64,000 nucleotides of DNA from Stigmatella aurantiaca DW4/3-1 (GTDB lineage: Bacteria > Myxococcota > Myxococcia > Myxococcales > Myxococcaceae): the NCBI RefSeq assembly GCF_000165485.1, contig NC_014623.1:10000893-10064892 (forward strand), read 5' to 3'. The notes beneath the pieces were generated by a model, which did no database searches, was not told the origin of the DNA, and saw only the letters and a list, made by a program, of their open reading frames with translations. Within the stretch, counting starts at the first letter, position 1. Every line of letters begins with the position of its first letter. A program made the position numbers and the translations under genes. Positions 15,276 through 50,691 of the stretch are shown in pieces.

Positions 15276-17885
15276 ATGCCGTATCCATTGAGCAAAACCC
15301 AGGTTCTCATCGCCGCGCTGCTGTGGGTGGTGGCGTGCTCACCTTCCAACGCGCCCGAGGCACCGCTCGGCGCGGCCCGCTTCGTCGTCGCCACGCACCG
15401 AGCCCTCGCCCCGGAGGACGTCACGCGCGTGGAAGTCACCGTGCAGGCCGAAGACGTGCCCCCCATCTTGCTGCCCCTTCAGAAAGAGGGCGAGGTGTGG
15501 GTCGGGCTCCTGAGCGCGGTGCGCGCCGGCACGGGCCGCAGCTTCCGCGCCGAGGCCTTCGATGTCACGGGCCTCAAGCGCTACGAGGGCGCGCTGTCTG
15601 GCGTCACCATCGTGGAGGGCGAGACCGTCCAGGTGAGCATCCTCGCCCAGGAGGTCCAACGGCCCGTCCCCTTCGAGAACGAGTCCCCGCTCATCGACTC
15701 GCTCGTCGTCACCCGGCCCACGGTGCAGCCGGGCGGCACGGTGACCGTCCGCGCCGCCGCACATGACCCCAACCCCGGGGACACCGTGACCGCCGCGTGG
15801 ACCGCCACCGGAGGCTCCTTCGGCACGCCCTCTGCCCTGGAGTCCACCTGGACGGCCCCCGCCACGCAAGGCACCGTGACGCTGACGCTCACCGTGACGG
15901 ATGCCCGCGGCGCCGCGTCCACCCTCAGCTTCACCCTCCAGGTCGAAGAGAGCACGACGGTGGGCGAGGGCAGCGCCGACGTCACCGTGCGCTTCAACAC
16001 CTGGCCCCGGGTCAACGCCCTGAGCGCCGTGCCCGCCCAGGTACGCCCGAACCAGCCGCTCACCGTCACCGCGCTCGCCGAGGATGTGGACACCGCGCCC
16101 GGGACGCTCTCCTACGCCTGGACGGCGAGCTGTGCCGGCACCTGGAGCGCTTCCCAATCGCGGGTGGCCCAGTTCACCCCCACCGCGCAGCCCGCGCAGA
16201 CCACCTGCAACAACTGCCAGCTCACCGTCACCGTCTCGGACGGACAGGGCGGCGCCACCACGGGCACCCTGGGCATCTGCGTGGGCCAGCCCCCGGTGCT
16301 CCAGGTCCTGCCCTACATCGAGAGCAGCTCGCAGTCGTCGGCCATCGTGGGGCCGGGCGACCTGGTGACCTTCCGGGTGACGGGCGCCGACGCGAACCAG
16401 CAATCCCTGAGCTTCGCCTGGTCGGGCCCGGGCGTGCTCAGCGCCCCCACCTCTCCGGGAGCCAACACGAGCGAGATCCTCTGGACGGCCCCCTCCTGTC
16501 TGCCCCCGGCGCCCCACGGTGTGACGGTGACGGTGACCAACACCTCGGGGCTCTCCGGCGCCCAGCGCCTCCCCTTCCAGTGGACGGGCCCCACCTGCAG
16601 CCAGGCGCCGTGCGCCTTCTCCATCGCCCCGCCGCAGAAGGCGCTCATCCTCAGCAACCACTGCCTGGTGGATGCGCCCGTGTTCATCCCCGAGGGCTTC
16701 CGCTTCGAGGGAACGGGGCACTCGCTCACGGCGGTGGATCCGCCGGGCGGCCACTTCCAAGGCGCCGTGCTCCGCAACCGCGGCAGCGAGGCCTACGTCC
16801 GCTCCGTCACCGTGAAGGCGCAGGGCATCCGGGACATCTGCTACAACGGAGCGCAGCGGCTGAGCGGCATCCTCTTCGAGGACGCCTCCGGCACCATCAC
16901 CAACACCCAGGTGGTGAACATCCGCAAGGCCGACGGGGCAAGCGGGTGCCAGGAGGGGACGGGCATCGAGGTGCGCGCCACCGGGGCCCGCGTGTCCCGC
17001 CCCTTCGTGGACGTCACCCAGAACCAAGTCTCAGGCCACCAGAAGACGGGCATCGCCGTGACGGGGCCCGTGGATGTCATCGTCGCCGGCAACACCGTGG
17101 AGGGCCGGGGCCCGCAGAACCAGATCGTCCAGCAGGGCATCCACATCAAGCTGGGGGCCCAGGGCGCGGTGCTGTACAACCAGGTCAACGGCCATGCCTA
17201 TGGCGGCGCGGATGACATCGCCCCCGGCATCCTCGTGACCGGCGGCGGCTACTACGGGGGTCCCCTCTGCGAGGGGCTCAACATCGAGGGCAACACGCTG
17301 GTGGGAAATGATCTCGGCATCTACCTCTCCCAGCTCGAGGCGAACGGCAACGCGCCCGCGACCCCCACGCACATCCGGGTGGCCTTCAACACGTTGAGCC
17401 ACGCCAGCGTGACCAACGGGTACGTCTACCAGGCCGCCATCGCGGATTCAGGGACCGGGAACATCATCACCTCCAACACCATCTCGGGCGCCGGGTACAA
17501 CCCCGCCACGCTGCCGGGGGCCACCTTCGCCGTGGACGTGCTGGCAAACTCCGCCTCGCGGCTGGCGTTCCTCACCGAGCCCCAGTCCGTGCCCGTGGGC
17601 GCGTGCTCGGGCAGCCTCACCGTGCAGAGCCAGGATGCGGCGGGCAACCTGTCCGTCCCCACTCCGGCCACGGCCTCCCTCACCGCCTCGGGCGACGCGG
17701 CCTCGGGCGTCACCTTCCACACCGACGCGGCATGCACGAGCGCCCCGGTGACGGCCCTGAACCTGAGCAACCCGCACGCGGAGGCGACGTTCTATTTCAG
17801 AGGCTCGCAGACGGGCACGGTGGGGGTGAGCGTCACCCTCGGCGCGCTCACCGCCTCCCAGTACCACGGTCTCTTCACCCCGTAG
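15276..17885 (+). CDS. Lipoprotein with Ig/PKD-like domains and right-handed beta-helix
   Basis: This 869-residue protein has a lipoprotein signal (LIAALLWVVACSP). It then has several Ig/PKD-like segments (about residues 30-430, for example TVTVRAAAHDPNPGDTVTA and SYAWTASCAG). A parallel beta-helix region (about 470-760) follows, with repeated turns such as TGIAVTGPVDVIVAGNTVEG and YNQVNGHAYGG, and a final Ig-like module. Beta-helix folds of this NosD/pectate-lyase type often bind or cut polysaccharides. It is surface or periplasmic. No catalytic residues can be assigned. It stands alone, ending 35 bp from the convergent trehalase gene with a hairpin between them. Confidence 0.8.
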   Translation: MPYPLSKTQVLIAALLWVVACSPSNAPEAPLGAARFVVATHRALAPEDVTRVEVTVQAEDVPPILLPLQKEGEVWVGLLSAVRAGTGRSFRAEAFDVTGLKRYEGALSGVTIVEGETVQVSILAQEVQRPVPFENESPLIDSLVVTRPTVQPGGTVTVRAAAHDPNPGDTVTAAWTATGGSFGTPSALESTWTAPATQGTVTLTLTVTDARGAASTLSFTLQVEESTTVGEGSADVTVRFNTWPRVNALSAVPAQVRPNQPLTVTALAEDVDTAPGTLSYAWTASCAGTWSASQSRVAQFTPTAQPAQTTCNNCQLTVTVSDGQGGATTGTLGICVGQPPVLQVLPYIESSSQSSAIVGPGDLVTFRVTGADANQQSLSFAWSGPGVLSAPTSPGANTSEILWTAPSCLPPAPHGVTVTVTNTSGLSGAQRLPFQWTGPTCSQAPCAFSIAPPQKALILSNHCLVDAPVFIPEGFRFEGTGHSLTAVDPPGGHFQGAVLRNRGSEAYVRSVTVKAQGIRDICYNGAQRLSGILFEDASGTITNTQVVNIRKADGASGCQEGTGIEVRATGARVSRPFVDVTQNQVSGHQKTGIAVTGPVDVIVAGNTVEGRGPQNQIVQQGIHIKLGAQGAVLYNQVNGHAYGGADDIAPGILVTGGGYYGGPLCEGLNIEGNTLVGNDLGIYLSQLEANGNAPATPTHIRVAFNTLSHASVTNGYVYQAAIADSGTGNIITSNTISGAGYNPATLPGATFAVDVLANSASRLAFLTEPQSVPVGACSGSLTVQSQDAAGNLSVPTPATASLTASGDAASGVTFHTDAACTSAPVTALNLSNPHAEATFYFRGSQTGTVGVSVTLGALTASQYHGLFTP

Positions 17886-38055: not shown

Positions 38056-38104
38056 ACACGCTTTGCTATCGCGTCTCCCTCTCATCACGCCTGGAGGGAG
38101 ACCC

Positions 38105-39649
38105 ATGCAGTTCAACCTGCCGTCGAACCACGGCTTGTCCCAAGACGTTCAGAAGGACCCGGATCTGCTCTGGCGAGCCCAGGACGGCTCGCCATCGCTG
38201 ACCGATGTGCAGCACGCGGCCCTCGCGGCGGGCGTCGCACGGGGGACCTCCCTGCTCGTCGTCGCCCCGACGTCGACGGGCAAGACCCACATCGGCCTGT
38301 GGGCGCTCATGGGCTGGCTGTTCTCCGATCAGCCCCGGCATGCCGTCTACCTGGTGACCCACCGCGCGCTGGCCCGGCAGAAGTTCGAAGAGCTGACCAA
38401 GCTGCTCTGCGCGCGTCACTTCCAGGGGGACAAGGGCAGCATCGCCCTCGCCACGGGAGACACCGTGGAAGATGCCGAGGGGCACACGCCCACGCAGCCA
38501 CTCGAAGTCCCTGTCCTGGTGGCCACCTATGAGAAGTACCTCGCGCTGGTCTCGGGCGCTGGCATCCGCGAGGACATGTCCCAGAGCCTCATCATCTGCG
38601 ATGAGATCCAAATCCTGGGCGACGAGAGCCGTGGCCGCAACATCGAGATCCTGCTGACCTTGATGAAAAAAGCGCGCTGGGGACAATTGGTGGGCTTGTC
38701 CGCCGTGCTCGACCCAAGCGACGCCAAGCACCTGAGTGACTGGCTGGGGGTGAAGCTCATCCACCTCAGCAGCCGGGAGAAACATCTGCACTACGAGTGC
38801 CGCACCCCCACCCGCCTCCTCTCGTTCCGCACGGACGCGCCCGACGCGGGCATCCAAGATCAGGAACGTCCCGCCTCGGCCCCGGATGACCTCCCAGCCA
38901 TCATCGCCCAGGTGCTTCGCCAGCCCCACCACCTGCCTGCGATCGTCTTCTGCACTTCCAAGAAACGGGTCTACGAAACCACGGGGGCCTATGCCCGCTC
39001 CCGCAGGCTCACGGTCTCGCCCACACAATCCCTTCTGCCTGGGTTGAGGGATTCCACCGCAGCCGCGCGCGAGCTGTCTTGTTACATCCCCGAGGGCTTC
39101 GCCTTCCACACCGCCGATCTGCTCGATGCGGAGCGGCGTCTCGTCGAAGAAAAGATCGCGTCGAAAGACATCCAACTGGTCTTCGCCACCAGCACCCTCG
39201 CCGCAGGCGTCAACTTCCCCTTCAAGACGGCCATCTTCGACCGATGGAAGCGCTGGAATGATCGGACCAAGACCCATGAACCCTTGCCCCCGAGTGAGTT
39301 CCAGAACATGGCGGGCAGGGTCGGCCGCATGGGGACGACTGGCACCCACGGAAGCGTCCTTTTGACTTCCACGGATGGATTTGCCGACAAGAAGAGCATC
39401 CGGATCTACCTTCAGCCCGATCAGACCAATCCCCTCACCCCACGCATCACGCCCCAGGCCTTCCATCAGCTCTCGCTTCAGCTCGTCTCTTCCGGGATGT
39501 GCGAGACCCAGGAGGAGTTGGAGGCACTGCTCCTGAGCAGCTTCAGCGCCACACGGGAGCAAGAGTCGAACCAGACCGGCCTTGCCCATTGGACCGCTCA
39601 ACTCAACAAATCCACTGCTGCGCTCAGGAACTGGGGGTTCATTCTATGA
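38105..39649 (+). CDS. Ski2/Hel308-like DEAD/H helicase (lacks own C-terminal ratchet domain)
   Basis: This 514-residue SF2 helicase starts at 38105 with GGAGGGAG before the ATG. Motifs: Walker A APTSTGKT (54-61), motif Ib TYEK (141-144), motif II DEIQILGDESRG (166-177), motif III GLSAVL, motif V FATSTLAAGVNFPF, and motif VI MAGRVGRMG. The form DExx-LGDESRG and the MAGRVGR box are those of Ski2/Hel308-like helicases. The protein ends after a winged-helix-like region. Normally a ratchet (HhH/Sec63-like) part would follow, and this seems to be moved to the next gene, which overlaps by 4 bp. It probably unwinds nucleic acid in a two-protein complex with the nuclease. Confidence 0.85.
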   Translation: MQFNLPSNHGLSQDVQKDPDLLWRAQDGSPSLTDVQHAALAAGVARGTSLLVVAPTSTGKTHIGLWALMGWLFSDQPRHAVYLVTHRALARQKFEELTKLLCARHFQGDKGSIALATGDTVEDAEGHTPTQPLEVPVLVATYEKYLALVSGAGIREDMSQSLIICDEIQILGDESRGRNIEILLTLMKKARWGQLVGLSAVLDPSDAKHLSDWLGVKLIHLSSREKHLHYECRTPTRLLSFRTDAPDAGIQDQERPASAPDDLPAIIAQVLRQPHHLPAIVFCTSKKRVYETTGAYARSRRLTVSPTQSLLPGLRDSTAAARELSCYIPEGFAFHTADLLDAERRLVEEKIASKDIQLVFATSTLAAGVNFPFKTAIFDRWKRWNDRTKTHEPLPPSEFQNMAGRVGRMGTTGTHGSVLLTSTDGFADKKSIRIYLQPDQTNPLTPRITPQAFHQLSLQLVSSGMCETQEELEALLLSSFSATREQESNQTGLAHWTAQLNKSTAALRNWGFIL

Positions 39650-41025
39650 CTCGCCTGTATGCCACGGAAACCGGCAAGCAGATCGCCCTGAGCGGCCTGC
39701 TTCCCGAGACCGCTCACTACCTGCTGGACTACGTCGCGCGGAGCCATTCCCTGCTCAGCTCGATGCTGCCCAAGGAAGGGAAAGGCGCGGGAGATCTGGA
39801 TCAGTTCAACTATTGCTTGATGAACGCAGCGCTCACATCCACCGAGTTCGAGGGCTCGAATCGGACCCGCATCGTGCCCTACGGGTTCGATGAAACCACC
39901 GCCAACGAATCCGTGGTGAAGTACTCCGCGAGCCTCGCGGAAGCCCCCTGGGAAGCCCATCGCCGCGCGGCCAACGCCGCCACGCTTCTCATGAACTGGC
40001 TTGAAGGCGTCGACATCAGCGCCTTGGAGGACACCTATCCCGATCTCCGCGCCGGCCCCATTCAGGCGCTGTGCCGCGATCTCGCCTGGTGCCTCGCGGG
40101 ACTTGCCAACATTCTCGCCTCAGCGACTCGTCCCAACCTGTCCGCCAACGAGCGGCCCGCCTGCATGAGGCAGATGCCTCCTCAAGCCCTCCAAGCGCTG
40201 CACCGGCTGCCCGCATTCATCCGGTTGCTGATCCGGCGCCTCCTGGCCGGACTGCCCACGCCAGCGCTCTGGCTGCTTGAGCTGGAGCCCGCCCCAGGAG
40301 GGCGCGCCGTGTCCAGGAATGAGGCCATCTCGCTCCACCAAATAAACTTGAGTTCCATGGAGAACCTCCGACGCCGAGCCAACTGGGAGGAGCTCATCCG
40401 AATCCTCGCCGCCACCGGCGCCTCCGACGCCAAGGCCCGTGCACACGAGATCCAGACCATGGCTCACGCGTGGCACGGAAAGCGGCGCGAGCGCGCCCTG
40501 AAGCGCCAACTCCAGCGCCTCGAGGAGGCCGATCAGCCCTTGCTCAAGGAGTTCTATGACAGCCGGGAGAAGAAGTTCGAAGCCGCCTTCGAAGCCCTGA
40601 TGAAGCGCGTGGGGATTCCGTGCACGCTGTTTGACTCGGGTCAAAAGCCGGGCGCCTTCGACTACCTCCTGCGCATCGAGGGCCGGCCTCCGGTCATCGT
40701 CGAGTGCAAAACCAAGCAAGGAGACCATCTCGTCGATCTCAACGCCGCGCGGACCGTGCTCAGCAGTTCGGAGCAATATGGCCACCAGGGTACCTTCTGC
40801 GTCACGCTCTGCCAGCCGGGCGTCGATCCCAACGTCCTCGAGAGCCTGCAAGCATGTACCCGCCTGAGCATTGCCGAGACACACGATTTCGCGGAGGCGA
40901 TGACACGCCTCATGACGAATTCGCTGACCGCGCAGTCGTTCCATGACTGGCTGACCCAGCCCGGTCAGGTCACCTCGGAGATGCTCCTGGCCTACACGAA
41001 CTCGGCCACGGAACCCTCAGACTGA
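39646..41025 (+). CDS. Ratchet-like domain fused to PD-(D/E)XK nuclease, partner of the helicase
   Basis: This 459-residue protein is translationally coupled to the helicase (ATGA). The N-terminal region opens with YATETGKQIALSGLLPETA, which resembles the start of the winged/ratchet part of Ski2-like helicases (L-GR-x-A-x-YL-x-P-x-T), then becomes all-helical to about residue 300. The C-terminal part carries a restriction-type site: D339 in GAFDYLL, then E353 and K355 in PPVIVECKTKQG, the D-x(n)-E-x-K of PD-(D/E)XK nucleases. A Glu/Lys-rich helix (about 290-320) precedes it. I infer a nuclease guided by the helicase, probably in anti-phage defence. I know no named family with this split. Confidence 0.75.
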   Translation: MTRLYATETGKQIALSGLLPETAHYLLDYVARSHSLLSSMLPKEGKGAGDLDQFNYCLMNAALTSTEFEGSNRTRIVPYGFDETTANESVVKYSASLAEAPWEAHRRAANAATLLMNWLEGVDISALEDTYPDLRAGPIQALCRDLAWCLAGLANILASATRPNLSANERPACMRQMPPQALQALHRLPAFIRLLIRRLLAGLPTPALWLLELEPAPGGRAVSRNEAISLHQINLSSMENLRRRANWEELIRILAATGASDAKARAHEIQTMAHAWHGKRRERALKRQLQRLEEADQPLLKEFYDSREKKFEAAFEALMKRVGIPCTLFDSGQKPGAFDYLLRIEGRPPVIVECKTKQGDHLVDLNAARTVLSSSEQYGHQGTFCVTLCQPGVDPNVLESLQACTRLSIAETHDFAEAMTRLMTNSLTAQSFHDWLTQPGQVTSEMLLAYTNSATEPSD

Positions 41026-41120
41026 GTCCGGCGGCCGGAGTCCACCCGAGGGTGGACTCCCTCCAACACTTCGTCGACCATGCCGGCGGACGTTCCGCGC
41101 CGCATCGAGGAAGTGCGCCC

Positions 41121-41624
41121 ATGGCCAACACCGCCCCTTCCAAGCCCCCCTACATCCTGCGTCATCACCAGCCTGGGGACCTGGGTTGGATCATCCACCG
41201 CCATGGGGTGCTCTACCATCAGGAGTATGGCTGGGATGAGCGTTTCGAGGCCGTGGCCGCCAGCGTGGCCGCGGAGTTCCTCCAGAAGTTCGATCCGGCG
41301 CGGGAGCGCTGCTGGATCGCCGAGTGGAACGGGGAGCGCGCCGGCTCGGTGGTCCTCATGAAGAAGACGGACGAGGTGGCCAAGCTGCGCCTGTTGCTCG
41401 TCGAGCCGAAGGCACGGGGGCTGGGCATCGGCGCCCGGCTCGTGGACGAGTGTCTGCGCTTCGCGCGCCAGGTGGGCTACCGGCGGATGACGCTCTGGAC
41501 GAACAGCCTCCTCGTCTCCGCCCGGTCCATCTACGAGAAGGCTGGGTTTGAGCTCATCCACTCCGAGCCTCACAGCCTCTTCGGCTCGGGGCTGATCGGC
41601 GAAACATGGGAGCGAGAACTGTAA
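41121..41624 (+). CDS. GNAT family N-acetyltransferase
   Basis: This 167-residue protein starts at ATG 41121 with GAGGAAG upstream. A longer reading from 41052 has no site. The GNAT core is visible: the acetyl-CoA loop LLLVEPKARGLGIGARLVDE (R/Q-x2-GxG/A in RGLGIG), with TLWTNSLLVSARSIYEKAGF as motif B. The fold is that of small-molecule or protein acetylases. It has no operon partner. The substrate is unknown; the MarR-less form resembles the stand-alone domain of MarR-GNAT proteins. Confidence 0.9.
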   Translation: MANTAPSKPPYILRHHQPGDLGWIIHRHGVLYHQEYGWDERFEAVAASVAAEFLQKFDPARERCWIAEWNGERAGSVVLMKKTDEVAKLRLLLVEPKARGLGIGARLVDECLRFARQVGYRRMTLWTNSLLVSARSIYEKAGFELIHSEPHSLFGSGLIGETWEREL

Positions 41625-46956: not shown

Positions 46957-47240
46957 TCCTCCGGAATGTCGAGCTTGCCCACGAACGCCAGCAACTGCGA
47001 ATCGGCTGCTGGAGAAACGCCCGAAGCTTCTCCGCGACGATGTCATTGACCGTGCTCACACGGAGCAGGTTCACCCCCTGAACATCAATGTCCCGGGTAT
47101 CCCCAATGGGCTCATTGAGACTGATGTCCAGGGGGACGATGTTCGGGCAGGGTTGCCCTTTGGCGATGCGCTCCTGGTTCCGAGGCTCATCGGAAGGAAT
47201 CCGTCGAGGAGAAGTCCTGGTCTTTATAGGTCGTCTTCAC
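46953..47240 (-). pseudogene. AbiEii-type nucleotidyltransferase toxin, remnant
   Basis: Directly after AbiEi (GTGA overlap at 47240) a frame gives 17 residues and stops. In another frame the stretch PLDISLNEPIGDTRDIDVQ and LRVSTVNDIVAEKLRAFLQQ follows. These match the C-terminal half of AbiEii toxins (the VSTxxDIVAEKLRAxLQQ signature). A third frame gives an end-like FVGKLDIPED and TAG at 46953-46955. The nucleotidyltransferase domain with the GSxSxxD site is missing, and at least two frameshifts exist. The toxin cannot work. It lies next to an intact antitoxin. Confidence 0.8.
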
Positions 47241-48166
47241 TCCGTCGCCCCCTGGAGGACATCAATGGGCACGTTGATCGACAGCTTCCACCGCTCACTG
47301 AAGTCCGGCTTGAACGGAGCCCCCCCGAAGAGCTTGCTCGAACCGCCTCGCTTGGCTTGGGCAGGCCACTGATCCACCAGGGGATGGGTCATCCCGAGCT
47401 GCTCCAAGATGAACCCCACGCGCTGCTTGAGGATGGCGACGTTGAACTGCTCCACGAGTTCGACCAGCGGGTTGACGTCCAGCGTGTCCCGGGTCCGTGC
47501 CCACGCGTCCAAGACCGGCCCGATGCCGCCACACCACTCTGGATGTAACAGACCATCCACCAGCGTCCTTTCGGGTGTGGTCACGCGGACCGGATAACCG
47601 TTGGGCCGGTATTCCGCTGTCCCGATCAAGGCGGTGCCCCTCGAAAGGGCGTGCCAGTGAATCGGGGTCTCCTTGATTTTATCCACCATGCGTCCACGGA
47701 CCAGCGACAAGCCCAGCCACAAGCCCTCCCAGTCTCCTTCCCGGGTCCCGGGTGGAAGCATGCCCCCTGTGTGACCCGAGGGTAGAAGCGCATGGATCTC
47801 CTTGGGGAACTCCTCCGTCATTCCGTGGAAGACGAGCGCCGTGACATGGCTCAAGGCCGCATAGGGGTGGAGTTCCATGAGGATCTCCTCCTCTTGGACG
47901 CCCCCAGCTTGCACAAAGGGAGACTTGGCTTCGTAAATGCGGGAGAGCCCCTTGATTGGCCCCAGATCACCGTTCTGGACCAAGCGTTTGAGGATTGCGT
48001 GGATCTCCTCCAACCTGCCGGGAGCGCTCTCCCAGCGCCGCGCGTCAGCCGGTATTCGCTGCGTCGCACGCCTCAGCAGAAGCAGCGCACGCCAGTCGGA
48101 GATGACCCTCCGCTGCTCCGCAGCCATCTCCTCCAGCAGAGCTTGGCTGTAGGTCGCTTTTCTCAA
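47237..48166 (-). CDS. AbiEi-type antitoxin of type IV toxin-antitoxin system
   Basis: This 309-residue protein has an N-terminal DNA-binding winged-helix region (QALLEEMAAEQRRVISDW). The AbiEi_4/C-terminal region follows, with the family signature TTPERTLVDGLLHPEWCGG and ALSHVTALVFHG. In the AbiE system AbiEi represses its own operon by binding inverted repeats and counteracts the nucleotidyltransferase AbiEii. The toxin downstream is decayed. A palindrome (48179-48219) and a TTGACA promoter box sit right upstream, so self-control still looks possible. Confidence 0.85.
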   Translation of the reverse strand: MRKATYSQALLEEMAAEQRRVISDWRALLLLRRATQRIPADARRWESAPGRLEEIHAILKRLVQNGDLGPIKGLSRIYEAKSPFVQAGGVQEEEILMELHPYAALSHVTALVFHGMTEEFPKEIHALLPSGHTGGMLPPGTREGDWEGLWLGLSLVRGRMVDKIKETPIHWHALSRGTALIGTAEYRPNGYPVRVTTPERTLVDGLLHPEWCGGIGPVLDAWARTRDTLDVNPLVELVEQFNVAILKQRVGFILEQLGMTHPLVDQWPAQAKRGGSSKLFGGAPFKPDFSERWKLSINVPIDVLQGATE

Positions 48167-48288: not shown

Positions 48289-50691
48289 CTAATCCTTGGG
48301 GAGAGCGGCTGACTCGATGAGGGGAAGCTTGAGCTCCGTGCAGATTTGCTCCACCAGTTGCTTGCGACGTGGCGTCATCGTTTTCCAGCTCCTCAGCGTC
48401 TGCCAGAACGTCGAGTTCACCCCCGTGAAGAGCCGGTTACGGAAATCGAGGAAGTGGGTGTCCCCCTGCGGGTCGCCTCGAGAACTGTGCTCAGCATGCT
48501 CGCGCAACTGCTCCTCCGCAGGTCCACACCGCTGGGTCCCAGCGAATCCGACGACTCCGATGGCAGGTCCTTTCAGGGAGACGAGGATCGGGATGCACAC
48601 CAGCCAGGAGTAATCTCCATCCGGTGAAGCCTTGGGGTTGGGGCGGTAAATCAATGATTTGCGCGAGTCGTCACCTCGCAGCCAGCTCGTGTCCTGAGCG
48701 TAGCGAAGTGCATGCCCTGCAACCCCAGAGCCCCAATCGAACCGGACCGCCCATCCCCTGTTCGGGAACACACCAAATGCGGTCATGAGACTCTTGCGGG
48801 TGGGGTGCCAGAGGTGGCCCATCCACGACGAGGCGTACTCTCGTCTTCCCAGCTTCGATCCCAAAATCTGCTCCAGTTCCACCTGAAGCGTTTGGGTGAG
48901 CACGCCAGAAATCGAATCGGCGCTGGGCGGCTGGTCCCGACACTCTTCCAGCAGCCACTTGAGGAGCCCGATGACATCGGGGGAAAAGGGCTGAGCGGCA
49001 TCGGAGGGCGCGTAGGCCACGACGTACCGGTAGTCCACGAGAGGAGAGCCCATCGTGAACTGGACATGGTGAGTGCCCATCTCCTTGCGTCCACGCTTCA
49101 GCTCCGCAGGGTCGGGGACCCATCGCTCCTGTCCGCGTTCATCGCGCCGTTGAAGGGCAACGGCCTCGATGGAGCCGGATTTGATCCGCACGCGCTCGGG
49201 AACGTGGATGGAGAGCGTCAGTTCGTCACACGGGAACCGCACCGTGTAGGGCCTGCCATCGAACTCTGGGGGCAGGTGCTCCAGCCAGGAAGGCCGTTCC
49301 CGGCGTGCTTGAAGATCGAAGCCATTGAGCGCCAAGCAGTTCGAAATGCTGTAGCTCCAACGAAGCCATTCCAAGGGTTCCGCCTCGGCGCCACCACGCC
49401 CCATGACGGTGAAGAGGACGCGCTCCCCAGACAGCTCCCGGCGTTCCACCGGGATCCGTCCCAGGGATGTCTCCGCCATGGCCTGTGCCCAAATACCACT
49501 GAAGGGCTGTTCGATCAGGGCGAGCGTGATCTCCCCCCGGAGCGTCACCCCCTTCATCTCGACGTCGACCTGGGTGATGCCGTTGGCTTCGACCTTCCAG
49601 GAGCGTTTGTGGCTGACGGCATGGCTGAGCTGATCGAGCCTGGGCGTATTGTCGCTCTTGAGGAGAAACCGTCTGCGCTCCCGCCTCCGTTCATAGGACG
49701 TGCTCACACCCTCCCGTGTGAAGACTTCTACATCCACGTGTCCTGGATAGACCTGCGCAATGGAGAACTGGTTTCCCACAGCGTCCGGACGCTCCTCGGC
49801 GCCTGCCCCCAGAGAGCCCGTGGAGACGATGAAGAACCGGTTGCCAAAGAGGGCATCGAACGTCTCATAGGCATGGCGATGCGTGTGCCCATGAAAGCCG
49901 ATGCGAAAACCCGCGTGGTACAGCAGGCCGACATCCTGCGCGCGCAGAAAGTCCGGACGCCCCCGGCCACTGTCGAGCCCATGGTGCCAAACGGCGATTC
50001 GCGTGCATCCCCGCGCGTTCTGCTCCGCGTGGATCCTTGCCTGCTCAACCGCCTTGGCGCTGAACATCGCCCCGGTCCAGTACCGATCGTTCTGGTGACA
50101 GGAGCTGAAGCCGTAGAAGGCAATGCCCAACTCGGGAAAGACATGGGCCGACCAATGTTCCGCGTCGTCCTGCTGGGTGAGCTGAAAAGGACGAAAGTTC
50201 CCGGACCTGGGAACGTCCCGGTAGAAGGCGTCGAAGAATCCTTGGACATTCTGGAAACGAAGCGGATAGCGAGCGGGATCGATCCGCAAAACGTCCAAGT
50301 GACCGGAACGGCTGACCGCGACCCGAAGAGAGGCCGCCTCCGGCTCGATCCGGGCCTGCTGGACCTCCCGGGCGAAGCTGGCATCCCGATCGAGTTCCCG
50401 TCCCAAAGAGAGCGAGGTGCCAATGTCTGCGGCCCAGTCCACGTCGTGGTTGCCGGGAACCATGACGACCCTGCTGGGCTCAGAAACCGTCAGCAACGGC
50501 AGCACAGACCGCTTCAGGAACGCATCCAGCAGCGCGTATTCCTCCGGCGCACTGCGCTGCGATAGGTCTCCGCTGATGACGACGAAGTCGAAGGAGCGGG
50601 GCTTGAGGTGAGGACTCGGACCGCTCCAGACCTCCTCGAAGGTCCTGAACTGGCCCGTGAGATGAAGATCGGAGAGGTGGAGGATCCGCAT
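48289..50691 (-). CDS. Calcineurin-like metallophosphoesterase with C-terminal GAF-like domain
   Basis: This 800-residue protein has N-terminal MPE motifs: D-x-H in LSDLHLTG (near residue 8), GDLSQR, GNHDVDW, HH in WHHGLDSG, and GHTHRHAYE. A middle region of unknown fold (about 330-600) follows. A GAF-like C-terminus (about 620-740) contains WGSGVAGHALRYAQ and PILVSLKGPAIGVVGFAG. The final 60 residues are helical. MPE domains use two metals to hydrolyse phosphoesters, often nucleotides or DNA ends. A GAF domain might sense a small ligand. A 64-residue gene lies 17 bp upstream in the same direction. Located in an island with AbiE relics, so a defence role is possible but unproved. Confidence 0.78.
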   Translation of the reverse strand: MRILHLSDLHLTGQFRTFEEVWSGPSPHLKPRSFDFVVISGDLSQRSAPEEYALLDAFLKRSVLPLLTVSEPSRVVMVPGNHDVDWAADIGTSLSLGRELDRDASFAREVQQARIEPEAASLRVAVSRSGHLDVLRIDPARYPLRFQNVQGFFDAFYRDVPRSGNFRPFQLTQQDDAEHWSAHVFPELGIAFYGFSSCHQNDRYWTGAMFSAKAVEQARIHAEQNARGCTRIAVWHHGLDSGRGRPDFLRAQDVGLLYHAGFRIGFHGHTHRHAYETFDALFGNRFFIVSTGSLGAGAEERPDAVGNQFSIAQVYPGHVDVEVFTREGVSTSYERRRERRRFLLKSDNTPRLDQLSHAVSHKRSWKVEANGITQVDVEMKGVTLRGEITLALIEQPFSGIWAQAMAETSLGRIPVERRELSGERVLFTVMGRGGAEAEPLEWLRWSYSISNCLALNGFDLQARRERPSWLEHLPPEFDGRPYTVRFPCDELTLSIHVPERVRIKSGSIEAVALQRRDERGQERWVPDPAELKRGRKEMGTHHVQFTMGSPLVDYRYVVAYAPSDAAQPFSPDVIGLLKWLLEECRDQPPSADSISGVLTQTLQVELEQILGSKLGRREYASSWMGHLWHPTRKSLMTAFGVFPNRGWAVRFDWGSGVAGHALRYAQDTSWLRGDDSRKSLIYRPNPKASPDGDYSWLVCIPILVSLKGPAIGVVGFAGTQRCGPAEEQLREHAEHSSRGDPQGDTHFLDFRNRLFTGVNSTFWQTLRSWKTMTPRRKQLVEQICTELKLPLIESAALPKD

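Follow-up and report, generated by a model that had tools for sequence, protein, structure and literature searches.

Two overlapping myxobacterial genes that appear to encode the halves of one Hel308-like helicase-nuclease

Helicases paired with nucleases recur throughout bacterial immunity. Two overlapping genes of Stigmatella aurantiaca DW4/3-1, a helicase gene that ends early and a partner of unfamiliar composition, raise the question of whether a single helicase can be divided between such partners, and whether the result belongs to any named defence system. We studied them within a 64,000-nucleotide stretch of contig NC_014623.1 (hereafter the window; Table 1). An earlier note on this DNA had read the pair as a two-subunit helicase-nuclease with an unusual break point, possibly directed at phages. 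Our comparisons suggest that each gene encodes one half of a single Hel308-type helicase-nuclease, which would be an obligate two-subunit enzyme and probably acts in defence against phage or plasmid DNA.

Gene 1 carries the motor, comprising RecA1, RecA2 and the first part of a winged helix. Its position, its length of 514 residues and its SF2 motifs are as the earlier note gave them, with APTSTGKT at residue 54, DEIQILGDESRG at 166 and MAGRVGRMG at 402. The protein matches Pfam DEAD (2.7e-17) and Helicase_C, its top NCBIfam model is the Hel308-type PRK02362 (4.4e-46, residues 27–489), and its top solved structure in the PDB is Archaeoglobus Hel308 (2p6r, 3.3e-27). In PADLOC, HamB models are among the top matches (5.7e-34), and the candidate PDC-M23B also matches, all by way of a common helicase core. 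The cores of the gene 1 helicase motifs and of the gene 2 nuclease motifs do not vary among seven homologous pairs, so these motifs are not chance. One motif counts against a Hel308-type assignment: motif IVa reads AFHTADL (AFHxAEL or similar in relatives) rather than the AF/YHHAGL of Hel308 (PMC10484726). The ATG at 38105 is favoured as the start over an in-frame TTG at 38063, since the Shine-Dalgarno-like stretch GGAGGGAG precedes it.

Where gene 1 stops is the most unusual feature of the locus. It had been described as ending near the winged helix; the region was right, but the break lies inside that fold, between recognition helix and wing, slightly earlier than claimed. This placement follows from the joined gene 1 and gene 2 proteins of a relative (G092), which phmmer aligned to 2p6r unbroken across the gene boundary (26–543 to 20–499); the structural labels at the break are taken from the known Hel308 domain order. 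The G092 junction, '...ALRTWGFML' at the end of gene 1 and 'MRKLHVTEVG' at the start of gene 2, lies against '...QLENWGMVVEAAHLAPTKLG' of Hel308, and in the window 'LYATETGK' of gene 2 aligns with 'HLAPTKLG' of Hel308, ahead of the ratchet. When the window's two proteins are joined, PRK02362 matches them in one stretch (27–681 to 19–634 of 739) and scores 172.4 bits, compared with 157.5 for gene 1 alone. Alignments that span the junction thus bear out the unusual break point.

Gene 2 appears to carry the entire rest of the helicase, beyond the ratchet alone. All seven gene 2 proteins match PF21280 (Helicase_dom4_arc), the best at 9.1e-4 and the window's own below the cut-off. Tryptophan W148 is invariant in the eight proteins compared (the seven pairs and a Cereibacter homologue) and falls on Hel308 W599 through a further in-register segment that is non-significant alone. 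A ratchet tryptophan is a Hel308-specific feature (PMC4267639); Hel308 R592 is not conserved in gene 2, which tells against the assignment. Residues 3–243 match the C-termini of caspase–Hel308 proteins (hhalign, probability 95%, P 3.4e-8), and gene 2 therefore seemingly holds the whole remaining helicase, within which we call residues 189–245 domain-5-like from their position. An hmmsearch with gene 2 alone returned no match among PDB sequences. The ratchet-like N-terminus proposed earlier is thus present, but the end of the winged helix precedes it and all of the remaining helicase follows. Hel308 loses its helicase activity when domain 4, the ratchet, is deleted (PMC4267639), and gene 1 by itself is accordingly predicted to be inactive.

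The C-terminus of gene 2 is predicted, from its residues and from profiles, to be a PD-(D/E)XK nuclease. The site singled out earlier, D339 with E353-C-K355, was confirmed: together with E312 these residues are invariant in all eight proteins, including the Cereibacter homologue, whose identity is about 33%. In hhalign the nuclease region matches Mrr_cat (P 4.8e-5, score 35.5, the best of 100 column shuffles reaching 19.4) and the C-terminal parts of two one-chain helicases from haloarchaea (P 5.6e-6, 43.0 versus 22.1 for shuffles). Against the main reading, single-sequence matches for both ratchet and nuclease fall below Pfam cut-offs, and an AlphaFold model of gene 2, built from the window protein and one relative, has a mean pLDDT of 47 and fits PD-(D/E)XK in the order of its secondary structure only. 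A Foldseek search with this model gave nothing usable. A split Hel308-like helicase with a nuclease is nonetheless supported by the joined-protein, ratchet and profile matches.

Table 1. Features of the helicase-nuclease locus, in window coordinates
Feature	Position	Strand	Basis
Shine-Dalgarno-like stretch ahead of gene 1	38091..38100	+	sequence
Gene 1, Hel308/Ski2-type SF2 helicase, N-terminal half, 514 aa	38105..39649	+	Pfam, NCBIfam, PDB, seven-genome alignment
G-rich TGGGGG run inside gene 1, likely gene 2 ribosome-binding site	39631..39637	+	TGGGGG or TGGGGA at this position in 7/7 pairs
ATGA overlap, gene 1 stop and gene 2 start	39646..39649	+	ATGA or GTGA overlap in 7/7 pairs
Gene 2, predicted remainder of helicase and PD-(D/E)XK nuclease, 459 aa	39646..41025	+	alignments, profiles, conserved residues
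Gene 2 residues 1–30, putative last part of winged helix	39646..39735	+	joined G092 alignment to 2p6r; continuous Cereibacter chain
Putative ratchet domain (Hel308 domain 4), gene 2 residues 98–165	39937..40140	+	PF21280; joined PRK02362 match; W148
Gene 2 W148 codon, Hel308 W599 position	40087–40089	+	alignment
C-terminal helicase region, gene 2 residues 189–245, Hel308 domain-5-like by position	40210..40380	+	hhalign
Predicted PD-(D/E)XK nuclease domain, gene 2 residues 306–425 (E312, D339, E353, K355)	40561..40920	+	hhalign; invariant active-site residues

Plasmids of Cereibacter sphaeroides and C. azotoformans encode a homologue of the pair in one piece. Their 962-residue protein is colinear with gene 1 plus gene 2, 36% identical over its full length and unbroken at the split position, and for this reason the split is most simply explained as one gene fission on the myxobacterial branch. 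The two-subunit reading of the earlier note therefore holds for the split helicase with its nuclease, but the one-chain form makes the pair, as judged by colinearity, a fission variant of a one-chain helicase-nuclease. About 3.4–5.8 kb downstream of the Cereibacter gene, on a conjugative plasmid, lie genes annotated as DarT-family and ADP-ribosylglycohydrolase-family, a DarTG-like locus. In a small, midpoint-rooted tree of helicase cores, the pairs group with Cereibacter (100/100) and the seven pairs with one another (94/98); caspase–Hel308 one-chain proteins form the sister group (94/93), the HamB group (100/98) is placed apart, and haloarchaeal one-chain helicases lie in a distant clade.

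Related helicases differ in their attached domains. The caspase–Hel308 proteins, with an N-terminal C14 caspase and a Hel308-like helicase in one chain of about 1000–1040 residues, occur on plasmids of Alphaproteobacteria, Bacteroidota and Nitrospirota (L020, L021, L022, L023, L064, L065, L068), and the Rhodopseudomonas and Bosea loci have TIR and further caspase genes nearby. One-chain Hel308-like helicases on Halorarius and Natronosalvus plasmids (L067:3914-6712 and L070:3001-5823) end in an ECKSKQ PD-(D/E)XK-like domain related to the gene 2 nuclease. A Rhodococcus plasmid protein (L066:3428-6805) combines an N-terminal PLD-like domain with a Ski2-type helicase.

The pair is rare and looks like a unit that moves as a compact cassette. 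A neighbourhood search across Myxococcota, which the earlier note had proposed as a check, recovered it in 7 of 195 genomes, all from the window's family, and in two of the seven genomes of the window's genus. The seven pairs occupy five distinct chromosomal contexts, share no third conserved gene, and in most carriers sit among housekeeping genes with no recognised defence genes adjoining. Between G092 and another carrier, G093, the common DNA amounts to 3.0 kb at 93.5% identity in otherwise unrelated surroundings, and in G092 this shared unit begins 73 bp ahead of gene 1 and ends 2 bp past gene 2. Two genomes from the window's genus that lack the pair have DNA beyond the malic enzyme gene that bears no relation to the window. 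When genome and viral contigs were scanned for close relatives, gene 2 alone gave no match, and the same scans with a gene 2 alignment gave one genome, already among the known carriers; the genome contig scan uses short exact peptide patterns and mostly finds close relatives. Weak G091 and G092 matches (L008 and L009, 33%) were judged spurious, having a thymidylate-kinase-type P-loop-like start and no adjoining gene 1 homologue.

Other genes of the window were recorded alongside the pair. An acetyltransferase-like gene (41052-41624, + strand) directly follows gene 2 and is missing from the same position in a same-genus genome (L010). Six kilobases from the pair lies an AbiE remnant (46994-48166, − strand), consisting of an AbiEi-like gene (47240-48166) and an AbiEii reduced to 66 residues (46994-47191); L010 has a full AbiEii at 16748-17611. 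Beyond it, an 800-residue metallophosphoesterase protein (48292-50691, − strand) partially matches the defence candidate PDC-S60.

Could the apparent split be something other than two proteins made side by side? The 4-bp overlap reported earlier is confirmed, and it is kept as ATGA or GTGA in all seven pairs. In each of them the TGGGGG or TGGGGA run sits 8 nt before the gene 2 start and is likely its ribosome-binding site. Such a conserved run ahead of the junction, with gene 2 in the −1 frame, might also let −1 ribosomal frameshifting join both frames and yield a one-chain product alongside or instead of the two proteins; a slip at the run would produce '...NWG-VHSM-TRLYATE', which is close in length to the Cereibacter junction. 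We consider this very improbable, as there is no canonical X-XXY-YYZ heptamer, the run has the right spacing for a ribosome-binding site, both genes retain a conserved ATG or GTG start, and GC-rich DNA often contains open frames. The one-chain homologue could further hint that a frameshift has made a pseudogene here or that this genome was misassembled, an explanation that we rejected: the same split and 4-bp overlap recur in seven separately assembled genomes, and dN/dS is 0.14–0.26 for both genes, which are under purifying selection.

We propose the following model for two separate proteins derived from one. In a myxobacterial ancestor, gene fission would have divided a one-chain helicase-nuclease, leaving gene 1 with both RecA motor domains and the greater part of the winged helix, and gene 2 with the end of that fold, the ratchet bundle, the helicase's C-terminal region and the PD-(D/E)XK nuclease. 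Coupled translation at the ATGA overlap would yield both proteins together, and the heterodimer would complete one shared winged-helix fold, neither protein being a full helicase by itself. The complex would engage DNA at a 3' single-stranded end or gap and translocate 3'–5', while the attached nuclease would degrade DNA, by analogy with HamAB. Because the division runs through a domain of the helicase, a motor is expected only when the two proteins are in complex.

What such a complex would be for is judged from distribution and company. Defence against phage or plasmid DNA, the role that Hachiman has, is probably its role. In favour are the patchy distribution in the manner of a cassette, the DarTG-like genes near the plasmid homologue and a sister group that carries caspase domains. 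The AbiE remnant near the pair and the TIR and caspase genes near members of the sister clade are further hints of defence. The pair might instead serve DNA repair or recombination as an accessory enzyme, taking the place of Hel308/HelQ in bacteria and adding a resection nuclease, and be no defence system at all. AddAB-type helicase-nuclease pairs carry out resection, and the housekeeping neighbours in most genomes speak for repair just as the lack of recognised defence genes beside most pairs speaks against defence. Hel308 and HelQ are themselves repair helicases (PMC10484726). Even so, the patchiness of the pair across Myxococcota and within the window's genus, its differing sites and the homologue on a conjugative plasmid near DarTG-like genes make repair unlikely in our judgement. 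Within a clade, core repair genes tend to be stable and present throughout. Alternatively, the target may be mainly plasmids or other mobile DNA over phage, in the manner of DdmDE, or chromosomes may have captured a plasmid-borne competition gene. One-chain relatives do occur on plasmids (Cereibacter, Halorarius, Natronosalvus), and gene 2 gave no match in phage or viral collections. This sample is biased, however, since plasmids were the main non-myxobacterial collection searched by protein and the genome contig scan, relying on short exact peptides, mainly found close relatives; we rate such a target as rather improbable.

The pair may have wider company. Hel308 is described as absent from bacteria (PMC12278908), yet Hel308-type helicases do occur there, encoded by accessory genes and with effectors of at least two kinds attached. 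Tentatively, and at some distance from the alignments themselves, the pair could belong to a modular class, so far undescribed, of mobile DNA-sensing helicases of Hel308 type that spans bacteria and archaea and has interchangeable effectors (PD-(D/E)XK nuclease, caspase, possibly PLD); in myxobacteria, fission of the winged helix would then have made motor assembly the activation step.

Among known systems, Hachiman (HamAB) is similar in having two adjacent genes for a Ski2/Hel308-related helicase and a PD-(D/E)XK-type nuclease, and it degrades DNA upon sensing damage (PMC12278908). The nuclease here is fused to the second helicase half, whereas HamA is a separate protein; gene 2 matches no HamA in PADLOC and no DUF1837 in Pfam, and no HamA was found among the neighbours scanned. 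Gene 1 also lacks the roughly 270-residue region ahead of the helicase core of HamB: in the pairs the core begins at residue 25, compared with 288–302 in three HamB-type proteins, two of which have annotated HamA/DUF1837 genes next to them; this N-terminal region (NAH) is said to occur in all HamBs (PMC12278908). With neither HamA/DUF1837 nor the HamB N-terminal region, and with a helicase outside the HamB clade, we rejected membership in Hachiman. AbpAB likewise joins a nuclease and a Ski2-like helicase in two genes and is a Hachiman variant whose AbpA C-terminus is HamA-like (PMC12278908); PADLOC found no HamA-like domain in the pair. Hna shares a helicase with a C-terminal PD-(D/E)XK nuclease, a likeness seen here by sequence and profile only, but it is one 845-residue chain, a DinG/XPD-like, ExoDinG-type enzyme (PMC13381803), and was rejected because gene 1 is of Hel308/Ski2 type and the pair is two chains. 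The earlier view that the pair is distinct from Hachiman and Hna therefore stands, and we found no description of it in the open-access papers searched.

The remaining comparisons are with single-chain enzymes. Archaeal Hel308/HelQ shares the order RecA1, RecA2, winged helix, ratchet and C-terminal region, and the ratchet tryptophan at the W599 position; the pair differs in being split in two, in its added nuclease and in its altered motif IVa, and the joined protein scores far below the Hel308 equivalog cut-offs (172 bits versus 887 for PRK02362; 114 versus 1200 for Hel308). The haloarchaeal helicases share a related 'ECKSKQ' nuclease-like C-terminus and differ in their single chain and distant helicase clade. 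The caspase–Hel308 plasmid proteins, for which we found no name, are the sister helicase clade with C-termini that match gene 2; they are one chain, with an N-terminal caspase in place of the C-terminal nuclease.
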